A stretch of DNA of 64,000 bases from Bryobacterales bacterium. Its GTDB lineage: Bacteria > Acidobacteriota > Terriglobia > Bryobacterales > UBA6623. A model generated the notes under the pieces. That model saw only the letters and a program-made list of their open reading frames with translations, was not told where the DNA came from and did no database searches. Both the position numbers and the translations under genes were made by a program. Shown one piece after another: positions 522 through 42,962 of the stretch (position 1 is the stretch's first letter; the number at the start of each line of letters is the position of its first letter). Where the stretch lies: NCBI GenBank assembly GCA_026713545.1, contig JAPOOG010000129.1, forward strand, positions 124,001 through 188,000, written 5' to 3'.

Positions 522-3158
522 CTAGGCCGCGACTGCTATCTTCTTTTTGAAGCTTAGGGCCGCTGTATCGCTGTCACGATCGACGATGACGACATCGTCC
601 TCGCCGAAATCACCGTTGAGGATGGCCAACGCCAACGGATCTTGGATGAGCCTCTGGATCGAGCGCTTCAGCGGACGAGCACCGAATCTCTCGTCATAGC
701 CGTCGGTGAGCAGCAGATCCTTGGCGGATTCGGTGACCTCGACGCGGATCTTCTTGTCTTCGAGAAGCTTCAGCAGATAACCGAGCTGCAGCTCGACGAT
801 TTTGCCCAGATGCTCTCTCGCCAGGCTGTTGAAGACGATGATGTCGTCAATGCGGTTGAGGAACTCCGGCCGGAAAGTCCGGCTCAGCTCAGCCATCAAC
901 CGGGTGCGGATCGCCTGATTCTGATCACGGCCGTCGTGTGTCAGCGAAAACCCGATCTTCGCCGTTTGCAAGTCGCTGGATCCGACGTTCGAAGTCATGA
1001 TGATGACGGTGTTGTTGAAGTTGACCGTGCGTCCTTTGCCGTCCGTAAGGCGGCCGTCGTCGAGCACCTGCAACAGGACGTTGAACACATCCGGGTGCGC
1101 CTTCTCGATCTCGTCGAGCAACACGACGGAGTACGGCTTTCGCCGAACGTGCTCGGTCAACTGCCCGCCCTCTTCGTAGCCGACATACCCCGGAGGCGCG
1201 CCGATCATACGCGAGACGGCGTGCTTTTCCATGTACTCGGACATGTCGACGCGGACCATTGCCTTCTCATCGTCGAACAGGAACTCGGCCAGCGCCCGCG
1301 CCAACTCGGTCTTGCCGACCCCCGTCGGCCCCAGGAAAACAAAAGTGCCGATGGGTTGGTTCGGATCGCTGAGGCCGGCCCGATTCCGCCGGATGGCGTT
1401 AGAAACAAGAGAGACCGCTTCGTCCTGGCCGATGACGCGATCGCGCAGGCGATCTTCCATGTGGACGAGCTTCTGAACCTCGCCCTCCAGCATGCGGGCG
1501 ACAGGGATGCCGGTCCACTTCGCGACGATCTTCGCAATGTCTTCCTCGTTGACTTCGCCGCGTAGCAGACTGCTGTCGGTCTGCTGCTGTTCGAGTTGTG
1601 CGGCGGCCTGCTCCATTTCTTTCTCGACGGCCGTCCTTTCGCCGTAGCGAATCTCGGCCGCGCGCTGGAGGTCGCCCTTGCGGCTGCTTTCCTCTTCTTC
1701 ATTGCGGAGAGTCTCGTGTTTTTCTTTCAGCACTTTGACGCGATCGATGAGCTGCTTCTCCGACTGCCATCGCTCACGAAGATTCATCCCTTGCGAGCGC
1801 AGATCCTCCAGTTCGCTTTCGATCGTGTGGAGACGTTCCTTCGAGGAACGGTCCGTCTCCTTCTGGAGCGCCTGCTTTTCGATCTCGAGTTGCATCACGC
1901 GGCGCTCGATTTGGTCGACCTCCACCGGAACGGAATCGATTTGCATGCGCAAGGCCGCTCCCGCTTCGTCAATGAGGTCGATGGCCTTGTCCGGTAGAAA
2001 GCGGTCGCTGATGTAGCGATGCGACAACGTCGCGGCGGCGATGATCGCCGGATCGGTGTATCGCACGCTGTGGTGGATCTCATACGTTTCCTTGAGGCCG
2101 CGCAGGATGGCGATCGCGTCCGCTACATCCGGCTCCTGCACCATCACGGTCTGAAAGCGCCGTTCGAGCGCGGCGTCCTTCTCGACGTACTTGCGGTGCT
2201 CGTTGAGAGTCGTCGCGCCGATGCAACGCAGCACGCCGCGCGCCAAGGCCGGCTTGAGCATGTTGGCGGCGTCGATCGAGCCCTCGGCGGCTCCGGCCCC
2301 GACAAGCGTATGCAGCTCATCGATGAAACAGATGATCCTGCCGTCGGACTCTTCAATCTCCTTGAGAACGGCCTTCAGGCGGTCCTCGACCTCGCCGCGG
2401 AACTTGGTTCCCGCGACCATCGCCGACAGGTCGAGCGAGACCAGCCTCTTATTCTTGAGCGTCTCGGGAACATCCCCCTTGATGATCCGCAGGGCCAGAC
2501 CTTCTACGATCGCGGTCTTGCCGACACCCGGCTCGCCGATGAGCACCGGGTTGTTCTTCGTCCTTCGGGAGAGGACTTGAATGACACGCCGAATCTCTTC
2601 ATCACGACCGATGACGGGGTCGAGCCTGCTTTGGCGGGCCGCCTCGGTCAAATCGACGGCATAGCGCTCGAGCGCCTGATACTTGGCCTCGGGGTTTTGG
2701 TCGGTGATGCGCTGCGTGCCGCGGATCGTGACCAAAGCCTGCAAGATCGGCTCATGCGCGGCGCCCATCTTGTTGAGCAACCGCCCTGCCGGATCGTGCT
2801 TCAGCGCGGACATCGCGAGAAGCAAGTGCTCGGTCGAGACGTACTCGTCCTTGAAACGCGCGGTTTCCTTATGCGCTTTCTGGAACACCTCGTTCAGCGG
2901 CGGGGCCAAATGGGAGCCGCCCTCCGCGCCGCTGACCTGCGGTATCTCTTCCAGCAGTCCGCGGGCTTCCTGTGCGACAGCAGCGGGCTGAATGCCGCAC
3001 TTCGACAGCACGGACTGCACGACGCCTTCTTCTTGCTCTACCAGCGTGATGAGCAGATGCGCCGGGTGAATTTGCTGCTGATTCGATGCAGCGGCGAGCT
3101 CCTGCGCCTGTTGCACGGCCTCCTGGGCCTTCTGCGTGAACTTGTCGAAGCGAATCAT
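522..3158 (-). CDS. clpB: ATP-dependent disaggregase ClpB
   Basis: This is a hexameric AAA+ chaperone that, with DnaK, pulls apart heat-denatured aggregates in the cytosol. Order of domains: Clp N-domain repeats (residues 1-150), first AAA+ module with Walker [14 protein letters not shown], the long coiled-coil middle domain typical of ClpB (about 410-530), and second AAA+ module with [15 protein letters not shown], then the C-terminal D2-small domain. The length (about 878 aa) is normal. I start at the ATG at 3158 ([11 protein letters not shown]) rather than 3164, because the AGAGGA sequence directly touches the upstream ATG but is spaced six bases from the second. It lies downstream of the hsp20 gene on the same strand, separated by about 160 bp containing a GC-rich inverted repeat (GGGCGGG/CCCGCCC), so the two probably form a heat-shock unit. 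Confidence 0.97.
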
Positions 3159-3320
3159 ATGCATTCCTCTGGGTTGCCATCGAAAGGAGCCCGCTGTGGG
3201 GAAGCAGGCCGGGAACGGGTCATGTCGTGCAGGTCACTGCGCCCTTGGCCGCGGTGGGTTCTTCGCGAGAAACCTGACGGGCGGGGCGCCGCCGGGACGA
3301 CCCGCCCGCTGGCATTCACA

Positions 3321-3758
3321 TCAACCGATCTTGACCACCTTCGCCTTCTTCGGTTTGGCCGCGATCTTCGGGATCTCCACCTTCAGCACCCCGTTGTCGT
3401 ACTTGGCCGCAATCTTGTCGGTTGCGGCGCTGTCCGGGAGCGTGAAGCTCCGCTCGAACGAGCCGTAGACCCGCTCGAGCCGATGGAAGTTCTCGTCTTC
3501 GCTCTCTTTCTCGAACTTCCGCTTGCCTGAGACGACAAGAACGTTGTCCTCGACTCTCACGGAAAGGTCTTTCTCGTCCACGCCCGGCAAGTCCGCCTTC
3601 ACGAGGATCTTGCCGTCGTCCTCGCTGATGTCCACGCTGGGGCTCCAAGCACCTTCGCGAGGACCGCTACGGATGGGGGCAAAAGCCGTGTCAAACCAGC
3701 GGTCGATGTCATCGAACCAGGGCGTCATACCGCGATGTGTGTGTTTGATCAGATTCAT
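3321..3758 (-). CDS. Small heat-shock protein, Hsp20/alpha-crystallin family
   Basis: This is an ATP-independent holdase that binds unfolding proteins in the cytoplasm. The 145-residue product has a short N-terminal arm (MNLIKHTHRGMTPWFDDIDRW), the alpha-crystallin domain (about residues 40-130, with VKADLPGVDEKDL and the NGVLKVEIPK strand), and a short basic tail. The start was set at 3758 because AAGGAGGTG stands six bases upstream; a longer frame from 3779 would include the ribosome-binding site. Expression is likely driven by the promoter at 3795-3823. No CIRCE element (the HrcA operator) is visible. With clpB immediately downstream on the same strand, it likely hands substrates to the ClpB/DnaK disaggregation system. 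Confidence 0.93.
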   Translation of the reverse strand: MNLIKHTHRGMTPWFDDIDRWFDTAFAPIRSGPREGAWSPSVDISEDDGKILVKADLPGVDEKDLSVRVEDNVLVVSGKRKFEKESEDENFHRLERVYGSFERSFTLPDSAATDKIAAKYDNGVLKVEIPKIAAKPKKAKVVKIG

Positions 3759-17318: not shown

Positions 17319-17472
17319 CTAGCAGTCCGTGGTGAAAGTCCCGTGGAAGGCGCGGCGGGCTCCTGCGGTTGCTCGGTGAGCGCGCTGCTGCGTTACTGGA
17401 GCAGCCACACCTTACGCAATCGACCCCAAGGCGCGTAACGCCGCCCGCCTGACTTTCACCACGGGCTGCTAG
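17319..17472. repeat. Family B element, CTAG-flanked, intergenic copy
   Basis: The 154 bp unit is bounded by CTAG at 17319-17322 and 17469-17472. Its ends are inverted: CTAGCAGTCCGTGGTGAAAG and CTTTCACCACGGGCTGCTAG. The interior shares GCGGGCTCCTGCGG and GGCGCGTAACGCCGCCCGC with the larger copy inside pgi (41846-42113). There is no coding capacity, so it looks like a miniature inverted-repeat element with a CTAG target. Confidence 0.85.
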
Positions 17473-39330: not shown

Positions 39331-40890
39331 TCAAGGCCGGCGGTCGTCTCGGGCGCCGGATTCCGGGCCGCACCTGGTCCATTCATGGCCGTCGGCCTGA
39401 ATGAGGTCGTCCGCTTCTTTGGGGCCCCACGATCCGGCGGCGTAGTTGGGGAAATGCCGCGGGGGCAGCGCTTTCCAGACGTCGAGGATCGGCTCGACGA
39501 CTTCCCAGCCGGCTTCCACCATGTCGGCGCGCTGGAACAGCGTGGCGTCGCCGAGCATGCAGTCGTAGAGCAGGCGCTCGTAGCCGGTGCTCGACTTCGC
39601 GCCGAAGTAGTCGGCGTAGTGGAAGTCCATGTTGACTTCGCCCAGGCGGACGACCGGCCCGGGGATCTTCGCGCCGAAGCTGAGCGAGATGCCTTCGTTC
39701 GGCTGCAACCGCAACACGAGCCGGTTGCGGCCCAGCTTTTCGATGCCTGTCTGCCGGAAAAGGATGAAAGGCGCGCGGCGAAACTGAATGACGATCTCGG
39801 TTGCGCGCTTCGGCAAGCGCTTTCCCGTGCGTAGGTAGAACGGGACGTGCGCCCAGCGCCAATTGTCGACGAACAACTTGAGCGCGACGAAGGTTTCGGT
39901 CCTGGAATCCGCGGCGACAAGGGCCTCGTCGCGGTAGGCCGGCAGCACCTCTCCGTCGACTTTGCCCTCTCCGTATTGGCCGCGCACGGTGCGGCTGAGC
40001 ACATCTTCGGGGCGCATGGGTTGTATCGCCCGCAGGACCTTCGCCTGCTCGTCCCGGACGGCATCGGCCTCGAACGAGATGGGCGGCTCCATGGCGGTCA
40101 GGCTGAGCAACTGAAACATGTGGTTGGGCACCATGTCGCGCAGGGCGCCGGATTGCTCGAAGTAGCCGCCGCGCTGTTCGATGCCGACGGATTCCGACAC
40201 GGTGATCTGAATGTGGTCGATGTAGCGGCGGTTCCATACGGGTTCGAAGATGCCGTTGGAGAAACGGAAGACCAGGATGTTCTGGACCGTCTCCTTGCCC
40301 AGGTAGTGGTCGATACGGTAGATCTGTTCCTCGTCGAGCACGTTGCGGATGCCGCGGTTGAGGAGCCGCGCGGTTTGCAGGTCGTGGCCGAAGGGCTTCT
40401 CGACGATGACGCGCCGCCAGCGGTCCTCTTCCTGCTTGATCAGGCCCGCTCCGCCGAGGTGCTCGGTGACCGTGGCGAAGAACTTTGGAGCGGTCGCCAG
40501 GTAGTAGAAGTAGTTGCCGCGCGTCCCGTGGTTCCGGTCGACCTCGGCAAGCAGGTCACGCAGGCGCTCGTAGGTTCGGGGCTCGGTAAGGTCGGCCCGC
40601 AGGTAGTAGAGTCGCTTGACGAACTTCTCCCACAACCCGGCGTCGAGCGTGTTCGTCGAGAAGACCTTGATGTCGTCGGTCAGCTTCCGGCGGAACTGCT
40701 CGTGGCTCATATCGCGCCGCGCCAAACCGACGACCGCCAGCTCGTCGGCCAGGAGTCCTTCGGCCGCGAGGTTGTACAGGGCCGGAATCAGCTTGCGCTT
40801 GGTCAGATCGCCCGACGCCCCGAAGATCACCATCACGGCGGGCGGAGCCGGCTGGCCGGCCTGTCCCATGCCGCTAAGATCAGCCTTCAT
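39331..40890 (-). CDS. zwf: Glucose-6-phosphate 1-dehydrogenase
   Basis: The first enzyme of the oxidative pentose phosphate pathway, producing 6-phosphogluconolactone and NADPH. The 519-residue protein has the nucleotide-binding [19 protein letters not shown], the substrate/active-site motif [14 protein letters not shown] with its catalytic His, and the downstream EKPFGHDL. It lies 50 bp downstream of pgi on the same strand, forming a natural glucose-6-phosphate operon. An upstream 6-phosphogluconolactonase or gnd gene is not present here. Confidence 0.97.
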
Positions 40891-40940: not shown

Positions 40941-42962
40941 TCACGGCTTTAGCGCTTCGCGGACGGCGCCTTCGAGACGGCTCAGCGCGGTGGTGGCGTC
41001 CCCGCTGAGGTGGATGCGCAATGCCCTGCGGCCGCGCTCGGCCAAGACCTGAAAGTCACCGCTCGCCTGCGCCGCCTTCACGACGCCGAACGTGTATTTC
41101 CGGCCCGGTACATCGAGGTCGGCCGTATCGTCGCAGGTGATCTGCAGGAATACCCCGCTGTTCGGTCCGCCTTTGTAGGCTTGGCCCGTCGAGTGCAGAA
41201 AGCGCGGTCCGAAGCCGACGCAGGTGGCGACTTTTTTGCTGTCTCGCACCATGCGGCGGATGCCTTCGAGGATGCGCTCATGCTCCGGCTTCATTTCGAT
41301 GTAGCCGAGCAGGGCGAAATAGTCTCCCGCGTCGAGGCGTGCGAGGTGGGCCTTGATCAGGCTTGCCGGTGTCGCGCCGCCGCCGGCTTGGAGCGCGGCG
41401 GCGTTCGTGCCGTTGGCGAAGAAGGCCATGCCGTCGCCTTGCGCGAACGCCGTCTCGACCGGCAGCGTGCCGCTGGATTCGTATTGTTCGGTCAGCGCGC
41501 GGGTCACGATTTTGCTCGCCTCGACGTCAGGCTGATCGAAGGGGTTGATGCCGAGCACCGAACCGGCGACGGCGGTGGCGATTTCCCACAGGAAGAACTG
41601 CGCGCCCAGATCGTAGGAGTCGCGGAGATTCAGGCGTACAATCGGCCGTCCGGCCTTTTCGAGCTTGTCCATGGCCGCGTCCTGCTGAGCGTCGGTTTGA
41701 CCTTCGAGACTCAGGTAGGCGAACAGGCGGTCGTTGCCATAGTCCTCGGGCGAGCCGAGCGGTTCGCGGTCCACGGGGATGATTCCGCGGCCTTGCTTGC
41801 CGGTCGATTCCGCCAGGAGTTGTTCGAGCCAGGCGCCGAGGTCATCTAGCAGCCCGTGGTAAAAGTCCCGTGGTGCGCTCGGCGGGCTCCTGCGGTCGCT
41901 CGGCGCGGAGTGAGGAGGATGGCGATCCGGGTGATCTCCTCTGACGAACGACAAAGCCGACGAGCGCAAACGTCCGTCGCCCAAGGGGTCACGCGCCATT
42001 TCGGCTCGGCTGCGCGGAGCGCGCGGCGCCGCGTTCCTGGAACGGCCAGGCGTTACGTCATCGGCGCCGGGGCGCGTAACCCCGCCCGCGTGGCTTTTAC
42101 CACGGGCTGCTAGGCCGGGCGAGGCGATCAAGGTGAGCTTGTCGAGTCCCGCTTTCGCCGCCGCACCGAGAATCAGCCCCAGGACCAGACCGGGGTTCCG
42201 CTCCGCCGGCAGGCGGGGGGAACAGGCAATCGCCATCTCGCCGGCGCGGTCGAGAAGTCGTCTCACGTCGATGCCCATTGCTGCGGCGGGGATCATCCCG
42301 AAATGGGATAGCGCCGAGTAGCGTCCGCCGATACTCGGGTCGCCGTGGAAGATATGCCGGAAGCCGTCGCGGCGCGCGGCTTCCTCCAGTTTCGAACCCG
42401 GATCGGTCACGGCCGCGAAGTGGGCTCCGGCCTTGCCCTTGCCCAAAGTCTGTTCCAGCCGCTCGAAGAAATACTGCTTGAGGATGTTCGGCTCCAGGGT
42501 CGATCCTGATTTGCTCGAAACGATGAAGAGGGTTTTCGCCGGATCGAGTTTGTCTTCGAATGCCTTGACCTGCGCGGGGTCGGTCGAGTCGAGCACGTGC
42601 ATCCTCGGGTGGCCTTCCTGCTGTCCGAACGTTTCGGACAGCACTTCCGGGCAGAGGCTCGATCCGCCCATGCCGAGCAGCAGGACGTGAGTGAATCCCT
42701 CGTTGCGAACATCGGCGGCGAAGTCGGCAAAGAGGTCAAGGCGTGCAAGCTGACGTTCGGTGATGTCGAGCCAGCCGAGCCGCTTCGCTTCGTCCGACCC
42801 GCTCCATAACGTCGAGTCCCGCGCCCACAGCCGTCTCACCTTGTCGTTGACGCGCCAGTCTCGCAGGGCCCCGTCGAGCTCGGATTGCAGGTCTTTGCCC
42901 AGTGAGTGCCTCGGCTGGTGAATGTCGATCCCGGTCCTGGGCCGGCGGCGATGGCTGCTCAT
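40941..42962 (-). CDS. pgi: Glucose-6-phosphate isomerase interrupted in frame by a mobile element
   Basis: This SIS-fold isomerase (glucose-6-P to fructose-6-P) is closest to the isomerase half of transaldolase-PGI fusion proteins. The PGI signature is IGGRYSALSHFG (about residues 219-230), and the catalytic Glu region is EQLLAESTGKQGRG. The open frame is 673 residues, about 90 too long. Residues about 284-371 are translated from a family B element (41850-42113, exactly 264 bp) bounded by CTAG. Removing it joins LIASPGL directly to DDLGAWLEQ, the sequence expected for the family. The insertion is 15 residues before the catalytic Glu motif. GGAGG precedes the ATG. Whether the enlarged protein folds is not known. 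Confidence 0.93.
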   Translation of the reverse strand: MSSHRRRPRTGIDIHQPRHSLGKDLQSELDGALRDWRVNDKVRRLWARDSTLWSGSDEAKRLGWLDITERQLARLDLFADFAADVRNEGFTHVLLLGMGGSSLCPEVLSETFGQQEGHPRMHVLDSTDPAQVKAFEDKLDPAKTLFIVSSKSGSTLEPNILKQYFFERLEQTLGKGKAGAHFAAVTDPGSKLEEAARRDGFRHIFHGDPSIGGRYSALSHFGMIPAAAMGIDVRRLLDRAGEMAIACSPRLPAERNPGLVLGLILGAAAKAGLDKLTLIASPGLAARGKSHAGGVTRPGADDVTPGRSRNAAPRAPRSRAEMARDPLGDGRLRSSALSFVRGDHPDRHPPHSAPSDRRSPPSAPRDFYHGLLDDLGAWLEQLLAESTGKQGRGIIPVDREPLGSPEDYGNDRLFAYLSLEGQTDAQQDAAMDKLEKAGRPIVRLNLRDSYDLGAQFFLWEIATAVAGSVLGINPFDQPDVEASKIVTRALTEQYESSGTLPVETAFAQGDGMAFFANGTNAAALQAGGGATPASLIKAHLARLDAGDYFALLGYIEMKPEHERILEGIRRMVRDSKKVATCVGFGPRFLHSTGQAYKGGPNSGVFLQITCDDTADLDVPGRKYTFGVVKAAQASGDFQVLAERGRRALRIHLSGDATTALSRLEGAVREALKP
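41846..42113. mobile_element. Family B element inserted in pgi
   Basis: CTAG occurs at both borders (41846-41849 and 42110-42113). The termini are inverted repeats: CTAGCAGCCCGTGGTAAAAG and CTTTTACCACGGGCTGCTAG. Counting one CTAG as the duplicated target, the insertion is 264 bp, or 88 codons, and has no stop in the pgi frame. It shares terminal and internal blocks with the 154 bp intergenic copy at 17319-17472. No transposase is encoded, so it must have been moved by an enzyme elsewhere. Confidence 0.9.

Follow-up and report, generated by a model that had tools for sequence, protein, structure and literature searches.

A probable IS1182-type MITE inserted in frame in the phosphoglucose isomerase gene of a Bryobacterales bacterium, with further in-frame copies in other genes

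The window, by which we mean the whole 64,000-nucleotide stretch of the Bryobacterales contig analysed here, carries on its reverse strand a phosphoglucose isomerase gene (pgi) interrupted by a miniature inverted-repeat element (MITE). The features to which we refer are as follows.

40941 to 42962, minus strand: pgi, phosphoglucose isomerase of the TAL-PGI type, PGI part only, 673 amino acids with the insert (NF007080, PF00342)
41846 to 42113, no strand: MITE insertion in full, with the CTAG target copy at either end; member of a multi-copy family, the exact site being empty in the sister species
41850 to 42109, minus strand: core of the MITE, 260 bp (the commonest core length), reading CAGCCCGTGGTAAAAGCC...GACTTTTACCACGGGCTG in pgi sense
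41846 to 41849, no strand: target-site duplication, copy CTAG
42110 to 42113, no strand: target-site duplication, copy CTAG; the site is CTAA in the sister pgi and CTCT in G002
41846 to 41873, plus strand: terminal inverted repeat including CTAG, 28 nt
42086 to 42113, minus strand: terminal inverted repeat including CTAG, 28 nt
41850 to 42113, minus strand: pgi codons 284-371, the 88 inserted residues LAARGKSHAGG...PRDFYHGL
41796 to 41810, minus strand: conserved ESTGK motif, E385 to K389, invariant in 20 sequences
39331 to 40890, minus strand: ORF adjoining pgi, used as evolutionary control gene; 94.8% identity to the sister copy, dN/dS 0.14
17319 to 17472, plus strand: second MITE copy, internally deleted, with a core of 146 bp, or 154 bp when the CTAG at each end is counted

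The interruption at 41846-42113 is a 268-bp stretch with CTAG at each end and 28-nt inverted termini that are 89% complementary, much as a sequence-only reading of this DNA had described it. The 260-bp core (CAGCCCGTGGTAAAAGTC...GACTTTTACCACGGGCTG) together with one copy of the 4-bp target duplication (YTAR, here CTAG) adds 264 bp, or 88 codons, which begin on a codon boundary, and the frame of all 673 codons stays open through the element. Excision of the 264 bp in silico leaves one CTAG and restores LTLIASPGL-DDLGAWLEQLLAESTGK, so that the net length, the seamless removal and the absence of a stop claimed in that reading all hold. Its placement of the element 15 residues before the catalytic motif was close, the invariant glutamate E385 of the ESTGK motif in fact lying 13 residues past the insert. 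We take this residue to be equivalent to the catalytic Glu357 of animal PGI, an alignment to 2q8n covering the motif, and, by sequence recognition, the adjoining ORF at 39331-40890 to be zwf. Over the whole window CTAG occurs 30 times where base composition would give 220, a deficit of about sevenfold, and the copy at 17319-17472 sits within a 261-residue open frame of doubtful reality.

Comparison with relatives shows that the segment was inserted. The pgi gene of the sister species (genome G001, probably Bryobacterales bacterium RHO3_bin_12) lacks the element and presents an exact empty site, reading CTAA and collinear across the junction; when the 264 bp are removed from the window gene, 600 out of 600 positions align with the sister gene without a gap, at 93% identity. 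At the same site G002, a third member of the genus, reads CTCT. None of 19 other PGIs carries the inserted segment, which speaks against a homologous segment widespread in the family. Together with the family of copies described below, the empty site puts the observation far outside what chance would give and supports the earlier proposal that selfish DNA has inserted in frame in pgi. It is hardly conceivable that a repeat copy was joined into pgi in silico: such an artefact might be feared for a repeated sequence in a draft assembly of 170 contigs, but the pgi copy differs from every other, the closest in the genome being only 91% identical, and it has matching CTAG flanks, faces a collinear empty site and lies in the interior of a 199,790-bp contig. 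The misassembly that the earlier reading had named as a possible refutation is thus unlikely.

That reading had treated the element as single, whereas it is one copy of a multi-copy family with recurrent in-frame fusions, and a single-copy selfish element is ruled out. BLAST finds 51 matches in the window's own genome (G000; 5.6 Mb in 170 contigs and 99% complete), 42 in that of the sister species and none in G002. Among the loci fetched, 67 copies are full-length, 34 of them in G000 and 33 in G001; because copies were fetched region by region, these counts are lower bounds. The commonest core length, 260 bp, is that of 28 out of the 67, and this form may be a deletion product of a longer one that measures 338-353 bp and carries additional bases at its centre (L099, L097, L103 and others). 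The pgi copy differs from the consensus of the family by 6.9%, hence its insertion need not be new. The family has the properties of a MITE: it is short, multi-copy and without a transposase gene, it has terminal inverted repeats and a target duplication (28-nt repeats, flank statistics and empty sites), and it has ends and duplication length in common with an autonomous insertion sequence. A pattern scan of GTDB contigs found the element ends in several phyla and the MITE core in the sister genome only. The 88-residue frame that it encodes had no match in Pfam, no known RNA family scored above threshold and no plasmid source was found.

The flanks of the copies point to a characteristic mode of insertion. 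Both 4-bp flanks are identical in 15 out of 65 copies, as against 4.5 expected from shuffling of partners (0 out of 1000 shuffles reached 15), and they agree at no fewer than three out of four bases in 34. In 38 out of the 65 copies one flank or both match YTAR, a word that begins at only 0.13% of window positions. The duplicated words include CTAG, CTAA, TTAA, TATA, CTAT and CCAG, and this variety indicates a true 4-bp duplication rather than a part of the element ends. An IS630-like TA duplication is ruled out, as the duplications span 4 bp (TATA, TTAA, CTAT and TTAG among identical pairs).

A candidate for the source of transposition was found in the family relative G009, whose complete 1,482-bp insertion sequence, TTAG-CAGCCTGTGGCAAAAGTC...CCACAGGCTG-TTAG, matches the MITE in both ends and target. 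G009 holds three identical copies of the transposase, a protein of 447 residues with DUF772 and DDE_Tnp_1 domains whose best NCBIfam model is IS1182 (NF033551) at 201 bits, below the cut-off of 270; a transposase of G004 reaches 401 bits. In G014 and G017 the ends CTAGCAGCCCGTGGTAAAAGTC, with 22 bases identical, lead straight into a start of the form MAMGTRKPGQIPMFLAPDQLPQA, after which the contig ends. Neither an active autonomous copy in the same genome nor an intact transposase with matching ends in G000 or G001 was found, fragments only being present, which for the draft assembly of G000 is not decisive. One such fragment in G000 (contig C70) starts with CTAG-CAGTCTGTGTCTAAAA, that is, with different ends, and is cut by the contig end. 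Given the matching ends and target in G009 and the mere fragments in G000 and G001, the MITE is best read as moved in trans, at present or in the past, by an IS1182-like transposase. Near dozens of contig ends in G002 the sequence CAGCCTGTGGTGGAAGTC recurs, which suggests that a different high-copy insertion sequence with related ends breaks that assembly.

The insertion in pgi is not the only one to preserve a reading frame. Open frames spanning the element were listed for each copy, ten of them were tested with Pfam, and eight proved to be real genes, six in G000 and two in G001:

L071: VWA protein
L073: thioredoxin reductase-like protein, with the element at the TrxB N-terminus
L083: sulfatase
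L086: FGE-type sulfatase-modifying factor
L089: SMP-30/gluconolactonase-type protein
L090: methyltransferase
L107, in G001: 3-keto-disaccharide hydrolase
L108, in G001: TPR protein

With pgi, nine conserved protein genes across two genomes thus carry the element in frame, a lifestyle like that of the Rickettsia palindromic elements (RPEs). For all eight of the other carriers an element-free orthologue exists in the other genome of the pair, with the junctions visible at the DNA level. In seven out of the eight the element splits a hydrophobic N-terminus (e.g. MRFL, element, LASALIFGLLIPSALIAQ; or MKTL, element, LALTLLAASC), and pgi is the only carrier with the element inside a mature globular protein. 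Signal peptides were called by hydropathy and by eye; since in 34% of 242 genes at the same loci the N-terminal hydropathy peaks at 2.0 or more, seven out of eight would arise by chance with a probability of about 0.003. Residues added to a signal peptide should be removed with the leader. The same element frame is used in eight out of the nine carriers, pgi included, L086 using the other frame free of TAG, and in every one of the nine the core plus four bases is divisible by three.

Several other loci resemble these carriers at first sight. Long frames across L070 and L109 had no family match and were judged antisense, and L182 and L125 were rejected as fusions, their genes beginning past the element; by sequence recognition we take the gene at L182 to be leuD and that downstream of L125 to be glyQ. 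The L182 copy (around 3051-3324, G001 contig C46) lies between genes, at the upstream stop and directly before the ATG of the leuD-like gene. At L197 (G001 contig C133), the sister fge, the insertion point carries CCACGGGCTGCTA, apparently what a deletion left of an element end.

A second recurrent position is the end of genes. A codon-usage score trained on these loci picked out, as heuristic gene calls, genes whose frame enters the element; in 14 out of 17 cases (an antisense frame over pgi excluded) the frame ends exactly at a TAG or TGA within the duplication. The chance for an end to fall there is one in three, so that 14 out of 17 has a binomial probability of about 5e-5. Two of these, L070 and L094, may be truncated genes, as the score marks the far flank too as coding. 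Because YTAR contains TAG and TAA, insertion at a stop codon rebuilds the stop, and this is the simplest reading of the gene-end copies. At L123 (around 3051-3309, G001 contig C72) a 530-codon frame crosses into the element at CTGG and stops about 19 residues further on, so that element sequence appears to form a C-terminal tail.

Does the element's coding capacity matter to its hosts, or to the element itself? Relative to the consensus, in-frame copies have 46 synonymous and 126 non-synonymous changes, and 39 other copies have 309 and 618, plus 16 to stops; the comparison of 46:126 with 309:634 (stops included) gives P = 0.13, with a trend to more replacement in the in-frame copies, and hence no sign of selection on the inserted amino acids. 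That the 88-residue peptide has acquired a function, whether in PGI or in the family, we regard as very improbable. The use of one reading frame in eight out of nine carriers and the Arg-rich composition of the segment would fit such a use, but the ratio of synonymous to non-synonymous changes is alike in both classes of copies, and the segment has no Pfam match and is predicted to be disordered. Stop-creating changes are absent from seven in-frame copies, where 2.9 were expected (Poisson P about 0.06), a count on which it bears that the carriers were partly picked for their open frames. Moreover, at least one of the two usable frames is free of stops in 65% of shuffles that keep ends and dinucleotides, so the open frame needs no special cause; such a frame is likely by chance, and its maintenance by selection on the peptide is not supported. 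A related idea is that target and length have fitted the family to a low-harm existence: the TAG and TAA of YTAR would rebuild stops, and the 264-bp step and stop-free frame would suit signal peptides, whose added residues would leave with the leader. If selection on the element has kept both its length and its open frame, it would be a mobile element adapted to translation, and pgi would be the extreme case, a sole glycolytic enzyme with an internal element; this idea seems to us doubtful.

The element RNA might also be skipped or excised as a hairpin, leaving a protein of normal size, for which the byp elements of yeast mitochondria are the model. By this analogy, the strong predicted fold of the element RNA (-148 kcal/mol, z = -6.3) and the direct repeat that flanks it would be in its favor. 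A skipped element, however, needs neither frame nor freedom from stops, while core plus four bases is divisible by three in all nine carriers and the seven carriers compared have no stop-creating change vs 16 in the 39 other copies (P about 0.06), though open frames had partly guided the choice of carriers. We consider skipping extremely improbable, and read-through of the insert as part of the protein remains the reading that we prefer.

The next question is whether the interrupted pgi is alive. Its product scores 836 bits against NF007080 (bifunctional transaldolase/PGI), over a cut-off of 712, in two stretches, the best of which begins at residue 372, directly past the inserted segment, and Pfam PGI (PF00342) matches residues 90-244; the gene thus matches the TAL-PGI type on either side of the insert, with its motif kept. 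No other gene of the genome, which is 99% complete, matches PF00342, and the search revealed no second PGI of this family that would make it redundant; the family relatives searched have one match each. Of the changes since the split of the two species, polarised by G002, 18 non-synonymous and 11 synonymous fall on the window branch vs 20 and 18 on the sister branch, with 51 codons ambiguous, and these similar numbers indicate no special relaxation of the window pgi. dN/dS between the two species is 0.31 for pgi vs 0.14 for the neighbouring presumed zwf. The window PGI departs from otherwise invariant columns at two places, as do several relatives.

These data bear on the suggestion that the strain has lost PGI while keeping the frame, the insertion being a recent knockout and pgi a pseudogene before decay, open by luck. 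So GC-rich an element is likely to have a stop-free frame, as the shuffles show; the insert lies 13 residues from the invariant ESTGK glutamate; pgi has a higher dN/dS than zwf; and a recent insertion in a gene about to be lost would look identical. Against this, the gene is the only one of the PGI family in a nearly complete genome, it has no frameshift, stop or excess of amino-acid changes on the window branch, and the 6.9% divergence of its element from consensus means that the insertion need not be new. From these sequence comparisons we judge a knockout unlikely.

Structure prediction is consistent with a PGI fold that accommodates the insert. AlphaFold2, given an alignment of 20 sequences, produced a model with a mean pLDDT of 81.8, mostly above 90 outside the insert and below 50 for residues 287-371, the insert itself being at about 30; this disorder is partly a default, because the alignment held no homologue of the insert. 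In the model the insert exits the chain between a helix at 282-285, which follows a strand at 275-280, and a helix at 374-387. Among the Foldseek matches listed for the model, all are PGIs. The single-chain model supports the view that the predicted PGI fold tolerates a disordered loop, which does not thereby prove activity. The isomerase most likely keeps its fold and its activity, though it may work less well.

Thus, we suggest that a DDE transposase would move a non-autonomous IS1182-type MITE in trans, with insertion at YTAR and duplication of four bases. As 260 bp of core and 4 bp make 264 bp, insertion of the element at CTA-G, in the phase of a Leu codon, would preserve the host frame, and one frame of the element offers no stop. 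In pgi it has landed in a turn between a beta strand and the helix leading to the ESTGK glutamate, where it would be read through as an 88-residue disordered loop rich in Arg, Pro and Ser. The remaining copies would survive at sites of low harm: between genes, at gene ends, where a stop is supplied or restored, and in signal peptides. The identity of the element, its empty site, the open frame, the family of copies and the fusions in frame are established from sequence; we consider it likely that a transposase of this kind moved the element, that it is translated as a loop and that the enzyme carrying it works.

The outcome has precedents. Fusion of MITEs to genes in frame is no rarity and is commonest in Rickettsia; RPEs there insert into metabolic genes, nearly half of them in frame (PMC10969869), and a guanylate kinase that contains an RPE is both translated and active, its affinity being altered (PMC2229807). 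Like RPEs, the present elements are non-autonomous, have inverted repeats and a translatable frame, and lie in frame within unrelated genes including metabolic enzymes. RPEs, however, are about 150 bp, whereas the present MITE is 260 bp, has an IS1182-type relative and a 4-bp YTAR duplication, occurs in Acidobacteriota and has most of its in-frame copies in signal peptides; we liken the two by behaviour, not by sequence, and do not claim the element as an RPE. The analogy drawn in the sequence-only reading is apt for the outcome, the element being no orphan, and its expectation of a new case in another phylum is sustained, though not as a new phenomenon, in-frame MITE fusions being known in Rickettsia and enterobacteria. 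The enterobacterial RU-1 and RU-2 elements (ERIC, YAPL) are likewise MITEs with open frames fused to genes, but they are 127 and 168 bp long and occur in other organisms, and in YPO1552 the element supplies part of a signal peptide, whereas the present MITE splits an existing one. In Coxiella, QMITE1 and QMITE2 reach about 50 copies per genome, some adding stops or C-terminal extensions to genes that function and a few being in frame (PMC5896051); their duplications differ, being 2-3 or 7-11 nt and variable in sequence, and their in-frame cases within genes are in hypothetical proteins.

As for the IS1182 connection, this heterogeneous family includes members that target palindromes, and its member IS1272 replaces inverted repeats without duplication (PMC5678879), whereas the related insertion sequence found here makes a 4-bp YTAR duplication. 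That relative has a DDE_Tnp_1/DUF772 transposase and inverted repeats beginning CAGCCYGTGG; the MITE differs in having no transposase. A literature search, with most subscription journals outside its scope, found no acidobacterial in-frame MITEs and no account that describes the signal-peptide and stop-codon-duplication habits together. The element thus appears to be a new family, in a new phylum, for a known outcome, and its signal-peptide and stop-codon niches appear to be new.

The few bacterial mobile elements known within proteins are hereby joined by a lineage with empty sites in a sister species. Because the empty and filled pgi differ by one 264-bp step, comparison of the pair would directly probe how large a foreign insert a sole central enzyme tolerates. 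Furthermore, the recurrence of the element in signal peptides and at stop codons suggests that simple rules govern the placement of mobile DNA in gene-dense genomes.
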